From contig NZ_CP044507.1 of the NCBI RefSeq assembly GCF_008831505.1, forward strand, positions 1,922,001 through 1,986,000: a stretch of DNA of 64,000 bases. The letters run 5' to 3'. Origin of the DNA: Chryseobacterium sp. Its GTDB lineage: Bacteria; Bacteroidota; Bacteroidia; Flavobacteriales; Weeksellaceae. The notes under the pieces are model-generated. The model had not been told where the DNA came from and made no database searches. It saw only the letters and a program-made list of their open reading frames with translations. Shown in pieces: positions 54,864 through 61,127 of the stretch (position 1 is its first letter; every line of letters starts with the position of its first letter). The position numbers and the translations under genes are program-made.

Positions 54864-54893
54864 CAAAAAAAAGGGCATTCCGAAAAATGCCCT
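54864..54893 (-). terminator. Terminator after the 73-residue protein gene
   Basis: The stem agggcatt / aatgccct has, in the minus direction, eight T after it. It is about 90 bases past the stop of the 73-residue gene and closes the island operon. No other gene is seen in 54759-54980. Confidence 0.85.
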
Positions 54894-54980: not shown

Positions 54981-55202
54981 TTAGGCAGTTATTCTTAGTT
55001 TTGCGGTTCTGTGGGTTTCCACATTGGTACCGGCACTCATAAAGCCGTTCAGGTCCAGTCGGCCGTTAGGCCCCTCCTTTACACCTCTGCTTTCAAGATA
55101 TTGTCTGCCGCTACCGGCTTTTCCTGTATTTTCAAAGAGGATGTTCAGTTCTCTTTCCAGCCCGGCTCTAGTATCACGTCTTCTGTCTTTATTATTCATC
55201 AT
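54981..55202 (-). CDS. Small 73-residue protein of unknown function
   Basis: A very basic and polar protein starting MMNNKDRRRDTRAGLEREL. Features seen: a possible amphipathic helix in residues 8-25 (RDTRAGLERELNILFEN), a glycine-rich middle (GKAGSGRQYLESRGVKEGPN) and a Thr/Arg-rich end. No signal peptide, membrane segment or cysteine is present. It starts three bases after the stop of the 1199-residue gene, so both are probably translated from one mRNA, and a terminator follows. Partner protein, regulator or a secreted peptide are all open. I do not recognise it. Confidence 0.65.
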   Translation of the reverse strand: MMNNKDRRRDTRAGLERELNILFENTGKAGSGRQYLESRGVKEGPNGRLDLNGFMSAGTNVETHRTAKLRITA

Positions 55203-55205
55203 AAC

Positions 55206-58200
55206 TTAATCATTAATTATTTCGTAAACTGATTCAATATTCTTCTTTGTTATCCTGTGGGCAACTGCGTTGTTAAGCGCATGTTTTACAAAATGCTCAT
55301 AATTCCCCGTCATCCACTGTTCCCTGTTAAAACTTCTGCGTACATACCAGTCCGACATTTTCACCATATTTTGGGTAAGCGGAAAACAGTACTCTGCCAT
55401 CAGACTGCGGATTTTATCAGAAAACTCCTGATCCAGAAACTGTCCGGACTGCAGGTCGTCCAGGACATCCTGAAGCGATGCCAGCGCCAGATGGGGTACA
55501 TACGGCAGGCTGTTGGCAGCCACATCATCACGCAGACTCTGGGATACAGCGGCATACAGTTCAGGATAGCCTGCCTTCTCCAGTTCTGTCCCCGCATCAA
55601 GCAGGTTTTTACGGATGCTTACGTGCTGTATCAGCGCTGCCGCAGCAATCGCTGAAGGTTGCAGTTGGCTTCCAATTGCAGAAGGATTTCTTCTGCATAC
55701 CTGGTAAAGCACCGCACTGCACAGTTCCGAAGCATACTCCGGTTGGTCTCCTGTACACTGCAACAGCAGTTCATTTGCAACCTCCGGAACCTGCGGTGCC
55801 AGCTTCACTAAAGTTTCTTCCGCTCTTATACTTACCGAATTGTCCGGATGATTCAGGTGCCAGATCAGCAGTTGTACCGCAAGCTGGTTGGCGGTGAAAC
55901 CGGCATTTGCGTCATTCAGCCATTTGTATTTATTAACTGAGCTCTTATCAGGACAGACAAGATAGGCGAAATGCCTGCTGATGATATCCAGTAAATCACC
56001 GGCTGGTAATGTGGAGGCCTCAACATCCAGCAGTTGGGCCAGAGCCGTACCAAGTTTTTTGGTACTGAACCCATAATTTTCCGAAGGATGCAGTACATGT
56101 TTGATCCAGCTGGAGCTTAGCTTTTCGCCTGCCTGAGCAATTCCGTTACCGGAACCGTTAAGCCTGTTCATTTCATATAGATTCCCGCAATCGGCTTCCG
56201 TTACGGACTCAGCACATACGGGGTCAAGTTCATTCAGCAACCGTTCAAATCTGATACAGTTGGATGGGGTAAGTTCCATTGCCAGGACCCCTGCAATCAG
56301 GCGTCGTGTTTTCAAACTTAACTGCCGCGTGATCAGTTGCGTCCAGTCAGCGGCAAAGAGATCCGCATGTACTTTGCTGCGTACTTCCGCTTCATTCATG
56401 ATCTGCGCCATCCTTTTACCGTACTGTTTTGCCGACTTGGCTGAAGTATCCGAAGGAGCAAACAGACTGCACAGTGCCAGTTTCAGTACGGGATCACAAT
56501 TCAGATGAATCAGGATTTCCGGTAATGTCTCGCTTTCACGCAGGTTAGCTGCACCCAGATGGTATCCTGCCCCACGTGTGGGAGCATCAAATGTGGACTT
56601 CTCAGCATTCATCAGTACTGTTTCAGGTGCCGGCAGAACTTCAAAACGGTAGTAAGATAGAGCCTTCTCAGCCTGACCGGTTGCCGTAAGGACACCCGCA
56701 AATTCTTCCTTAATGCTTTTCACAGCATTTGGGTAGGACATTTCACCGGAAGCATAATCGAGCAGGGACGCAAACTTTTGCAGTGTGTGACCCGGCGCAC
56801 TGCCAAAATGAATGAGTGCATCATTGATCAGGCAGAACTGAGATTCGTTGCGCCAGAAAGGACCCATCGAACTTTCCAGCATTTGCTGCCAGCAAACGGC
56901 AGCTTTAGTTTTTTCATTGTAAGTTCCAAAGCATACGACTAGGTGCAGCAGCTCTTCACAGCGCTCCCAACGGTTCATCATCCCGGAAATTACATGTTCC
57001 TGCCATGTTTCTGCAAGTTTCAGCACATATTTAATGCTGGATTCACTGTCCGCCAGGGTTTCAGCAGTTACACGGATAACTTTTCTGAATCCTTCACTGT
57101 AAAGTCCCAGTTGCCCGCGGCTGCCTGCAAGCATTGATTTGAGCAGATATTCGAGTTCCCGAGGTAAAGCGTCGCTCGTCAGCACAACAAGTGTTTGATA
57201 AAGTTGCGGGAATACCTGCTCCGGTAAAAGATAGCTTCTTTGCCACTGACTCCTGGACTCCAGACTGAATTTCATCGACTTTATCAGGAGCTGCAGCCTG
57301 TGCTGCAGACGTGCCGGTACTGTTGTACCCGATGCTTTATGGCGAAGCACCATTCCATGGAGGAAATACAGCTCCTCAATTAAATTCTGAAGGTCAGTTT
57401 CCCAGGTTTTCTGAAACCATTTTTTGGCACTGATCTCCGGAATGTCCTCATTACTTAGATACCCACGGCAGGTAGCTGCCAGACGCATCTGTTCAAAGGC
57501 TTGAAGATCAGGGTCTACACGGTTGGAGGCCCAGAGAGATACGGGAGAGTCGGCCGCTAGGTGCTTGGTCATCAGTACCGTAAGTACTTCAGCTCCCGGT
57601 TGGCTGGCCAAAAATAGCTTAATAATGGCTTTAGTCTCTGTAGCGGTTTCAGGAAGCCCGTGAATTCCGAGCATCGCCTCCAGATTGGCAGCCATGCTGC
57701 GCAGTAGTCTGCGTACAGGCAGGCGCGGCTTAAGTACCTCACCGAATACGCGGTGAAATTCCAGCGCGGATTCCGCATAAGCTACAATCCTGTCAGGATC
57801 TTCTTCGCAGTCAAGCAAGTCCTCCAGCTGCTCCCCAGTGCTCAACAGTTCATTGTAAGTAAGCAGAACAGGGTTGTTCCACGCTGCACAGTGGTCCCAG
57901 ATCAGCCTTACCGTATCTTCCTTGCTCCATTCCATATCAGGATAGATACACGGGTCCGGGGCGAACACGGGTGCAGACCAGGGGGTTTTGGCTTCCATCG
58001 CGGCATAATACAGTGCTGACCTTAAACTGTCGTCGAGTTCACTTCGGTACTGTTTGTCTATGCAGGTACGGAGTTGTGCCGCTTCCGCCCAGGCTTCATA
58101 CGCATAAAATTGTCCCAGGTATACAAATGCCCTGTCTGCGCAGATTTTTAAACCGTCATCATGGGTGATATACTGCAGGACTTCCCCAAATTGCTTCTGT

Positions 58201-58805
58201 GCAATTAAACTGTCTGCAATTTCTTCCCTGAATTCAGTAAACGCGGTACGGTAACGTACATTTAGTCTTTTTAGCAGTAGTGCAAGTCTAAGTGATTCCG
58301 CCGGGAGCTGCATCTCCACAGCCAGTTCTGCAGCACGCTTCACATCTTCCATCACCCATTCCGGTTTTACATGTACCCGCGCGGCTTTGTCTGCCCAGTC
58401 CTGCGTGCAGTCCAGTACTGCATTCAGCGGATAGGCCGACTGTGCGTCGTGATACAGCGTATTGGCTACAGAATAAGGATGGTCCGGATACTGGCGGCAA
58501 AACTGCAGCAGCAGGTCGTTGCCCTGCTCCATATAAGCGGCATGCAGTTTCAGAAGAAACCCTTTCAGCGTATCATGTCCTATTTCCAGCGTCTCCAGTG
58601 AGCGGTAAAGATGGCGGATGGCCGACATGGCATAAGCCCTGTCCTCACGCACCTCCAGTGGGAGCATATCCAGAAGGTCATTGGGCGGGATCGGGCCCCG
58701 GGCCTGCGAAAGAAGTACGGAAATCCACAGTCTCGTGCGGTCTTCCAGCAACTCTTCGCCTACGCCCGGATCATAATTCCGGAGTTTTTGGTTATTAAAT
58801 TTCAT
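55206..58805 (-). CDS. Very large helical-repeat protein of unknown function (1199 aa)
   Basis: 1199 residues, soluble, without signal peptide or membrane segment. It appears almost entirely alpha-helical. Short pieces resemble TPR helices (AEAAQLRTCIDK region, about 250) and a HEAT-like repeat at about 980-1015 (HPDNSVSIRAEETLVKLAPQ). No Walker, kinase, nuclease or protease motif was found. The N-terminal YDPGVGEELLEDRTRLWI is not one I know. The start ATG at 58805 lies 48 bases before the lipoprotein stop upstream, on the same strand. It forms a tight pair with the 73-residue gene. A scaffold role is a guess. Confidence 0.85.
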   Translation of the reverse strand: MKFNNQKLRNYDPGVGEELLEDRTRLWISVLLSQARGPIPPNDLLDMLPLEVREDRAYAMSAIRHLYRSLETLEIGHDTLKGFLLKLHAAYMEQGNDLLLQFCRQYPDHPYSVANTLYHDAQSAYPLNAVLDCTQDWADKAARVHVKPEWVMEDVKRAAELAVEMQLPAESLRLALLLKRLNVRYRTAFTEFREEIADSLIAQKQFGEVLQYITHDDGLKICADRAFVYLGQFYAYEAWAEAAQLRTCIDKQYRSELDDSLRSALYYAAMEAKTPWSAPVFAPDPCIYPDMEWSKEDTVRLIWDHCAAWNNPVLLTYNELLSTGEQLEDLLDCEEDPDRIVAYAESALEFHRVFGEVLKPRLPVRRLLRSMAANLEAMLGIHGLPETATETKAIIKLFLASQPGAEVLTVLMTKHLAADSPVSLWASNRVDPDLQAFEQMRLAATCRGYLSNEDIPEISAKKWFQKTWETDLQNLIEELYFLHGMVLRHKASGTTVPARLQHRLQLLIKSMKFSLESRSQWQRSYLLPEQVFPQLYQTLVVLTSDALPRELEYLLKSMLAGSRGQLGLYSEGFRKVIRVTAETLADSESSIKYVLKLAETWQEHVISGMMNRWERCEELLHLVVCFGTYNEKTKAAVCWQQMLESSMGPFWRNESQFCLINDALIHFGSAPGHTLQKFASLLDYASGEMSYPNAVKSIKEEFAGVLTATGQAEKALSYYRFEVLPAPETVLMNAEKSTFDAPTRGAGYHLGAANLRESETLPEILIHLNCDPVLKLALCSLFAPSDTSAKSAKQYGKRMAQIMNEAEVRSKVHADLFAADWTQLITRQLSLKTRRLIAGVLAMELTPSNCIRFERLLNELDPVCAESVTEADCGNLYEMNRLNGSGNGIAQAGEKLSSSWIKHVLHPSENYGFSTKKLGTALAQLLDVEASTLPAGDLLDIISRHFAYLVCPDKSSVNKYKWLNDANAGFTANQLAVQLLIWHLNHPDNSVSIRAEETLVKLAPQVPEVANELLLQCTGDQPEYASELCSAVLYQVCRRNPSAIGSQLQPSAIAAAALIQHVSIRKNLLDAGTELEKAGYPELYAAVSQSLRDDVAANSLPYVPHLALASLQDVLDDLQSGQFLDQEFSDKIRSLMAEYCFPLTQNMVKMSDWYVRRSFNREQWMTGNYEHFVKHALNNAVAHRITKKNIESVYEIIND

Positions 58806-58853: not shown

Positions 58854-59072
58854 TTATTTTCTTGGCGGGATTGGTGGATCTGTTTCGTCAATTGATGAAG
58901 TTTGCGAAGTGGTAGCTGAATCCTTAGCAGTTGACGCGGCTGAATCACCACCATCCAGGAAAACATTGCCGGTAGGGTTCGTTTCTTCAAAAATTTCTTC
59001 GGCCTGATCGTTACGGCAGGAAGATAATACCATTAGACTTACACACGCTGAGATTGCAATTAATTTTTTCAT
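58854..59072 (-). CDS. Tiny lipoprotein with proline-rich tail
   Basis: 72 residues. The lipobox LSSC places the lipidated Cys at residue 19. The mature 53 residues are acidic, Ser/Thr-rich and apparently unfolded, ending IDETDPPIPPRK. Small lipoproteins of this type, with a short DPP-type tail, occur next to TPR-AraC regulators in Chryseobacterium-like genomes as far as I recall. A promoter element TACATTTG (59089-59096) lies 17 bases upstream. The 1199-residue gene follows 48 bases downstream and may share the transcript. Function unknown. Confidence 0.78.
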   Translation of the reverse strand: MKKLIAISACVSLMVLSSCRNDQAEEIFEETNPTGNVFLDGGDSAASTAKDSATTSQTSSIDETDPPIPPRK

Positions 59073-59088
59073 TTCAATTATTTTTTGT

Positions 59089-59096
59089 CAAATGTA
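59089..59096 (-). promoter_or_regulatory. Predicted promoter of the tiny lipoprotein gene
   Basis: The minus strand reads TACATTTG, matching TAnnTTTG. It lies in the 204-base divergent region between the lipoprotein and the TPR-AraC regulator genes. Confidence 0.55.
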
Positions 59097-59276
59097 TAGC
59101 ACATTTCCATTAATTAAAAACCGTTAGCCTTTTTCAGCGGTATTATTATAAAAAATAACGGTATTTTCTTAAAAAATGCAGGTATTTCAATAAAACTCAA
59201 TTTTAAATATTTACCGTAAAGTACTGTAAATCCGAAGTTTTTTATATATTTACCGATAGTAATAAGCACCCCCTGC

Positions 59277-61127
59277 TTGAAAACATCGCTGTACAACCGT
59301 AAATTCCTGATTAAAATAGTCATTAGTATGATTATGGCTGTCTCTGTGCATTTAAGTGGCCAGAATACCTTAGCTGATGAGACGCTATATTCCGAACTGG
59401 AAAAACAGATTTCAGCAGTTCAGAAAGACCCTTTAAAAACCCAAAAATTCATCCACCTTTTCGCTAAAAAAGCAAAGTCTGAGAAAAATGAGGAAAAACT
59501 TTATCGGGCATATGCGTTAGGGACTATATATGCTGAAAATCGGCGGAAATCGGCATATGCCGACAGCATGCTGCATACAGCTGCCCAAATCAACCGGCCT
59601 GACATATTGGGTGATGCACATATGATGAATGGCATGCTGCATCAGTTAAATGAAGATTATAATGTTTCATTACAGAGTTATGTTCAGGCCCAGAACTTTA
59701 TAGATGTTGACCAGGACCCCTATATGGCTCATGTTCTGTATCTCAATATTGCACGTATCAGAACATACTTAGGTCAGAATAGTGAGGCAAAGGAGGAACT
59801 TTTAAAAGCAGTCTCATTTTTCCGGAACAACTATAAGATGGTTGACGATACAGATTATAGAAACTATTACATGCACTCTCTTATCGCCCTGTTGGATACC
59901 CAGTCCAAACTGGGAGAGTTCGCAGATAATGAAAAACTCGTTGCGGAAGGGGTCTCCTTTATTGAAAAAGAAAAGCTGCCGCAGTTCAGGCCCTACTTCG
60001 TGGGCTCAGAAGGTATCGATGCTTATTACCGTAAAAATTACCCCCTGGCCATCAGCAAACTGAACCATGCCCTTAGCCTCTACAATGACAACTGGAAGCA
60101 CCTTACCGAGAAATTCTACCTCGGTATGAGCTATTACAAGGCCGGCAAACATCCGGAGGCGCTTAAATACCTAAATATGCTGGACGAGGAATTCCAGAAA
60201 ACCGGTAAGATAGACCCCCAGTTTAGGCCCGCCTTCGAGACCCTCTATGAATATCACAAGAACACCGGGAATGTTCAGAAACAATTGGAATATGTAAATA
60301 AACTGCTCCAAATCAACACCCTCTACGAAAAAAACTATAAGGAACTGTTCCAGCAGCTCAGCAGCCGCTACGACAATAAGGTCCTGCAGGAGGAAAAGGA
60401 ACAGCTGCAGAACCGGCTGGTCACAGACCGCATACAGTCGGGGATTATAAGTGGGGCTTCCCTTTTAATTGCCTTCGTCTCCCTGTTCATTGCCCTGCGC
60501 TACTACCGCCGCCGAAACTATTATAAGAAACTCTACGAAGCGTTTTCAGCCATACCGCAATCCGGGCCGGAGGCCGATGGGGATACAGACAGCGAAAGAG
60601 AGTGTTTTCAGGAAGAAAAGTTACACGCAAATCAGGAACTACTGTCGGAAAATGAAATTTTTGTATCTCCGGCGTCAACTGAAGAAATTCTGCCGGAAAA
60701 CGAAGCGGAGGCGGTGAATTCCGAATCCGTGCAGCAGGGCATGCGCAACGGCGGTGGCCTTAATCCGCTGCTTGTAGATCAGATTATGGACCGACTCCGG
60801 CAGTTCGAGCACGATAAGGGGTATATGAAAAGGAATCTTACCCTCACTGCCCTGGCTTCGTACTGCGGCACCAACAGCACATATTTGTCCAAGGTCCTGA
60901 ACCAGAACATGGGCCTGGGCTTCAATGGCTATCTCAATTCTCTCCGTCTGAATGAAGTGATACAGATGTGGAAAACCAAGCCCCGGACACGGCAGCTCAG
61001 TATACAGGACACCGCCAACAAACTCGGTTACAGTACAGCCCAGAGTTTCTCCAAGAACTTCCAGGAACGCTACCACATCTCCCCTACTTACTTCCTGAAA
61101 AGGCTGAATGATGACGAACCGATTTAA
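59277..61127 (+). CDS. Membrane-bound TPR-AraC-type transcription regulator
   Basis: 616 residues. A signal/anchor sequence starts the protein (FLIKIVISMIMAVSVHLSG), then TPR helices (about 40-370) that should be periplasmic. A membrane helix follows at about 388-410 (ASLLIAFVSLFIALRYY). The last 100 residues form an AraC-type HTH domain: LTLTALASYCGTNSTYLSKV and DTANKLGYSTAQSFSKNF. This is a known flavobacterial layout for one-protein signal transduction. The start is a TTG at 59277, chosen because it gives a full signal sequence; the first ATG at 59328 would remove its basic start. It is divergent from the lipoprotein gene. Confidence 0.9.
   Translation: MKTSLYNRKFLIKIVISMIMAVSVHLSGQNTLADETLYSELEKQISAVQKDPLKTQKFIHLFAKKAKSEKNEEKLYRAYALGTIYAENRRKSAYADSMLHTAAQINRPDILGDAHMMNGMLHQLNEDYNVSLQSYVQAQNFIDVDQDPYMAHVLYLNIARIRTYLGQNSEAKEELLKAVSFFRNNYKMVDDTDYRNYYMHSLIALLDTQSKLGEFADNEKLVAEGVSFIEKEKLPQFRPYFVGSEGIDAYYRKNYPLAISKLNHALSLYNDNWKHLTEKFYLGMSYYKAGKHPEALKYLNMLDEEFQKTGKIDPQFRPAFETLYEYHKNTGNVQKQLEYVNKLLQINTLYEKNYKELFQQLSSRYDNKVLQEEKEQLQNRLVTDRIQSGIISGASLLIAFVSLFIALRYYRRRNYYKKLYEAFSAIPQSGPEADGDTDSERECFQEEKLHANQELLSENEIFVSPASTEEILPENEAEAVNSESVQQGMRNGGGLNPLLVDQIMDRLRQFEHDKGYMKRNLTLTALASYCGTNSTYLSKVLNQNMGLGFNGYLNSLRLNEVIQMWKTKPRTRQLSIQDTANKLGYSTAQSFSKNFQERYHISPTYFLKRLNDDEPI

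Follow-up and report, generated by a model that had tools for sequence, protein, structure and literature searches.

STAND/NLR receptors combine a sensor with an ATPase switch and an effector. In canonical AVAST type 1 (Avs1), the pro-nuclease Avs1a is encoded upstream and is cleaved and activated by Avs1b, and the Erwinia Avs1 system EpiAvs is triggered by the terminase (PMC12799240). What Avs1 to Avs4 recognise is a packaging protein or some other protein of the phage (PMC12931631). In the literature that we searched (a limited set from which preprints were excluded), no conserved effector-less Avs is described, and binding without an effector is not documented as an Avs mechanism. The locus presented here shares with AVAST type 1, as known from Empedobacter brevis (locus L038) and from Erwinia EpiAvs (PMC12799240), a homologous Avs1b winged helix and solenoid, an Avs1c gene directly downstream, and the gene order. 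It differs in having no Avs1a nuclease, trypsin-like protease or ATP-binding domain, in the loss of most conserved winged-helix residues, in its basic Avs1c, and in its vertical retention at a single site, downstream of a lipoprotein gene.

The window, i.e. the complete stretch of 64,000 nucleotides of Chryseobacterium sp. that was analysed, contains a pair of genes which the initial annotation had described as coding for an uncharacterised helical 1199-residue protein without a visible catalytic motif and a basic 73-residue protein of no known family, separated by three bases and ended by one terminator. The open reading frames and a hairpin followed by a T-run confirmed this arrangement (Table 1). 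The AlphaFold2 model of the large protein is all helical, no catalytic domain was found in it, and the small protein has a pI of 10.5. Both proteins do have a known family, however: PADLOC and NCBIfam show the large one to be the sensor part of Avs1b, and the small one is an Avs1c, though a divergent one.

Table 1. Features of the locus, in positions of the window
Feature	Position	Strand	Evidence or remark
Intrinsic terminator after the Avs1c-like gene	54865..54893	(-)	Hairpin and T-run, -12.2 kcal/mol, z -2.63
Divergent Avs1c, 73 aa	54981..55202	(-)	3 nt past the stop of the large gene
Short Avs1b-like protein, 1199 aa	55206..58805	(-)	NCBIfam, PADLOC, alignment to full-length Avs1b, AF2 and Foldseek
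Lipoprotein, 72 aa (signal peptide, SC lipobox, C-terminal PPIPPRK)	58854..59072	(-)	48 nt before the Avs1b-like gene
-7-like promoter element TACATTTG (TAnnTTTG), upstream of the lipoprotein gene	59089..59096	(-)	Aligned in 3 genomes
Tandem 21-bp direct repeat (ATTTTTTA..A.AATACCG twice)	59138..59177	(-)	Repeats at 59138 and 59159, spacing 21
Divergent AraC-type regulator	59277..61127	(+)	Pfam HTH_18 1.7e-12 and TPR; hydropathy

The NCBIfam Avs1b profile matches the large protein with an E-value of 5.6e-103 and 345 bits, a score that falls short of the 1500 curated as the cut-off for full-length proteins, and the PADLOC Avs1b profile matches it with 5.3e-101. Of the 1931 profile positions, only 460-703, 849-1322 and 1481-1745 are covered. 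Full-length Avs1b comprises 1722-1946 aa, and the short protein aligns to it from the winged helix, just past the ATP-binding domain. A degenerate STAND winged helix occupies residues ~1-100 and a helical solenoid sensor residues ~100-1199; identity to the E. brevis Avs1b is 32-33%. On sequence grounds, the assignment of the large protein to the C-terminal part (winged helix and sensor) of AVAST type 1 Avs1b is secure. Searches with both proteins against Pfam and PHROGs gave no matches, nor did a PDB sequence search. When the AlphaFold2 model (mean pLDDT 78.9, pTM 0.74) was submitted to Foldseek, the top hit was Avs3-terminase (8dgc_B; E-value 2.4e-9, TM 0.53 by query length), and nearly all other matches had a TM of ~0.1. 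Avs3 with the phage PhiV-1 terminase (PDB 8dgc) is thus the best structural match of the modelled solenoid, at 12% identity, but Avs3 includes an ATPase and a nuclease, whereas the window protein has neither.

Canonical relatives of Avs1b have a Walker A motif at residue ~235 and a Trypsin_2 domain at 25-162, both of which are missing from the 1199-aa protein; in the alignment to full-length Avs1b it lacks the protease and the Walker A/B regions. The Walker A pattern G....GK[ST] is found in intact canonical Avs1b but in none of the three short forms described below, and Pfam reports no protease domain in the window protein, while the E. brevis Avs1b matches Trypsin_2 at 1.1e-12. As only 1200 codons lie between stops in the frame of the large gene, no N-terminal extension has been missed. 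A missed upstream exon or a frameshift was also rejected, with no homologue of the NBD or the protease in the six frames. No Avs1a MBL-fold nuclease gene adjoins the pair, and no homologue of the E. brevis Avs1a or, elsewhere in the genome, of the N-terminal half of Avs1b (protease and ATP-binding domain) was found in the four genomes of the genus that were analysed, namely the window genome (G000), G035, G004 and G053. Of the features of AVAST type 1, the sensor solenoid and the downstream Avs1c are present and the nuclease, the protease and the ATPase are absent; lacking these three defining features, the locus is not a working AVAST type 1 system.

For the 73-aa protein, the NCBIfam Avs1c profile gives a weak E-value of 0.014 in the window and a clear one of 7.1e-08 for the G004 orthologue. 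The three Avs1c-like proteins of the genus align with canonical Avs1c and display the motifs R..(L/F)ERE(L/V)N.L and PN.R.(D/N)L, and homology to Avs1c, as a divergent member, is secure at this level. They are basic (pI 10-11.5), as opposed to a pI of 5.1 for the E. brevis Avs1c. At many canonical Avs1 loci (L036, L037 and L041-L047), two or three Avs1c-like genes lie in tandem downstream of Avs1b, which indicates that Avs1c stands for a small family of paralogues and not for one gene. One of the functions suggested by the initial annotation, a toxin-antitoxin system, was rejected: the two proteins are each homologous to a component of Avs1, and neither matched a toxin or antitoxin family. Support for a surface-assembly scaffold was likewise not found, and the suggestion of phage defence pointed to the right neighbourhood.

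The two genes had been expected to behave as a unit, and indeed they occur together in all genus genomes that contain either of them (3/3). Besides the window genome, the short form is encoded in G035 (64% identity, 1197 aa) and G004 (37% identity, 1248 aa), in each case with an Avs1c-like gene downstream, a lipoprotein gene upstream, a divergent AraC-type regulator, and DegT and epimerase genes on the other side. The fourth genome, G053, has DegT and polysaccharide genes at the site and no Avs1b-like/Avs1c-like locus. A single-sequence scan of genome contigs gave no match, but an alignment-based scan did yield loci, and outside the genus every one of these with intact context contains a complete Avs1. 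The three exceptions are L037 and L055, which are cut by contig ends, and L039, which is split: in this Flavobacterium araucananum locus (L039:7630-12801), Avs1b is divided into frames of 318 and 1395 codons, with both Avs1a and Avs1c intact. The order and phylum samples yielded no additional short form that was convincing. Weak partial matches to the N-terminal part of the sensor in two other Bacteroidota (L074 in G923 and L077 in G1143; frames of 823 and 2007 codons) are possibly other STAND receptors. Matches on plasmids are annotated as Avs1b or serine protease. Phage origin was dropped as an explanation, the phage and viral-contig searches being empty.

In a phylogenetic tree, the short forms constitute one clade (100/100) beside full-length copies from Weeksellaceae and Flavobacterium, so that a single loss event is the simplest reading. 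Within the genus, the locus is passed on vertically and occupies a single conserved site. The idea of accessory cargo in a polysaccharide locus is therefore only partly borne out. The position is correct, as a DegT aminotransferase gene and a Polysacc_synt_2 epimerase gene follow the pair, but the locus stays at its site. Recent foreign cargo was rejected on composition, with a GC content of 0.498 as compared to 0.499 in the neighbouring DegT gene.

Residues conserved in canonical Avs1b have been retained very unevenly. In the winged helix, each short form keeps 5 of 13 and most of the YHxSF motif is lost; in the solenoid, the three short forms keep 19-22 of 23 at 395-600 and 17 of 18 at 940-1199, with an intermediate 37-40 of 51 at 600-870. 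For the window protein, the difference between winged helix and solenoid has a Fisher p of 4e-4, which can only be a guide because the rows are related. The surface expected to face the ATPase has thus decayed while most of the sensor core has been kept. Changes common to the short forms in the distal solenoid (Y652, K653, Q692, Y694, W916) could mean an altered ligand. Between G000 and G035, identity is 90% in the first 100 residues, 48% at 395-600 and 43% at 870-940; this uneven divergence could result from ligand-driven change or from recombination, and the fast-evolving middle (395-600) fits a ligand arms race or relaxed constraint.

The operon very probably begins with the genus-specific gene for the 72-aa lipoprotein. 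Its counterparts in G035 and G004, the other carriers of the pair, show identities of 81% and 56%, and G053, which does not carry the pair, has no such lipoprotein. Upstream of the lipoprotein gene lies a conserved element resembling the -7 promoter consensus of Bacteroidota, TAnnTTTG; at the other end, the terminator is conserved in G035. Direct repeats with ~21-bp spacing beside the regulator gene are a known arrangement of AraC-type operators. The tandem 21-bp repeat, situated between the lipoprotein and regulator genes, is likely to be such an operator, albeit a putative one: its motif occurs twice in the window, where 0.08 matches would be expected, and exactly one site each is present in G000, G035 and G004 and none in G053. 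The regulator, which is divergent at the matching position in G035 and G004, consists of a signal-like segment, a TPR domain, one transmembrane segment (~389-407) and a C-terminal helix-turn-helix, and we infer that it probably controls the operon. The C-terminal PPRK of the lipoprotein is conserved in the genus, which suggests that the membrane regulator receives it as a signal or binds it as a ligand. In G008, from another genus of the same family, a distant lipoprotein gene (L064:1501-1722) is divergent from a TPR-type (AraC-like) gene and Avs1 is absent; lipoprotein and regulator may thus form a module of greater age. G035 also contains a partial second copy of the C-terminal part of the regulator (L021:16139-16342; 68 residues, 90% identical), which lies downstream of the complete gene at a distance of ~1 kb.

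This setting raises the question of co-option by the host, in which the sensor solenoid and Avs1c would bind a host protein and regulate or assemble polysaccharide or envelope components under the AraC-type regulator. The location inside a polysaccharide locus beside DegT and epimerase genes, conserved in three species, speaks for it, as does an envelope-type regulator and lipoprotein belonging to the unit of the pair. There is also a precedent in the NLR-like immune system LypABC of Caulobacter, which has been reused for gene transfer agent release under tight transcriptional control (PMC13236601); LypABC differs in keeping and needing its ATPase and peptidases. However, the pair has a separate operon with its own terminator, the family-wide sensor residues are preserved and not substituted, and G053 contains polysaccharide genes but no pair at the site. 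We regard co-option as rather unlikely.

Improbable in our view is a split receptor, the sensor half of which would signal in trans via an NTPase and an effector encoded elsewhere and not recognisable as Avs1. Such a receptor would explain why a winged helix is retained at all, though degenerate, next to a well-kept sensor core; but the decay has struck the conserved face of the winged helix that should contact the ATPase, and homologues of Avs1a and of the Avs1b N-terminus were found in none of the four genus genomes.

Selection bears on whether the pair is a remnant, a truncated defence gene heading for loss. The absence of Avs1a, protease and ATPase, the degenerate winged helix and the absence of the locus from one of the four genus genomes would be expected of a remnant. 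In the closest pair, G000 and G035, however, the large gene has an NG86 omega of 0.147 and the small gene one of 0.159 at a pS of ~0.69, a sign of purifying selection: with silent sites near saturation and no stop in either frame, both genes are maintained, the small partner under equal constraint. They are nevertheless evolving faster than their neighbours (omega 0.036 for DegT, 0.073 for the regulator). As three species whose proteins share as little as 37% identity all have intact open frames, a remnant is quite improbable, and the omega values also disfavour a pseudogene. Very improbable is a dominant-negative or decoy role, in which the short form would compete with full Avs arriving on plasmids or phages and so avert self-killing: full Avs1 occurs in the family, Avs1b occurs on plasmids and an ATPase-less sensor could soak up the trigger, but full Avs1 is present in 0/4 genus genomes and the degenerate ATPase interface makes poisoning by co-assembly unlikely.

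The explanation that we prefer, with a probability of roughly 40%, is that the pair is an AVAST type 1 receptor which has been domesticated, lacks an effector and acts by binding, perhaps of a phage packaging protein. It would have started from a three-gene Avs1 composed of the Avs1a pro-nuclease, the protease-STAND-sensor protein Avs1b and Avs1c. Before the genus radiated, Avs1a would have been lost together with the N-terminal ~450-500 residues of Avs1b (protease and ATP-binding domain), and the winged-helix stub, the sensor solenoid and Avs1c would have been kept as a two-gene unit behind the lipoprotein gene. An envelope signal would act through the membrane-bound, divergent AraC-type regulator to switch the operon on. 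The sensor and Avs1c would then capture a phage packaging protein, for which the large terminase is the first candidate by analogy with Avs1 and Avs3, and we infer that the captured protein would be neutralised stoichiometrically, without killing of the cell.

The half-system, maintained at one place by one small genus, probably acts by binding alone. The pair may then be an NLR-like receptor without NTPase or effector, sensor-only, conserved and regulated, which binds a phage packaging protein and thereby blocks or reports it as a non-suicidal form of defence, a proposal that we make tentatively and at well below even odds. The evidence disfavours a remnant and permits no firm choice between defence by binding and host co-option. 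In this locus, evolution has removed the switch and the effector and has kept the sensor and its small partner across the genus. Avs1c has remained beside the sensor despite the loss of nuclease, protease and ATPase, which links the two, and the pair lets one ask whether an Avs sensor acts by binding alone and what Avs1c does.
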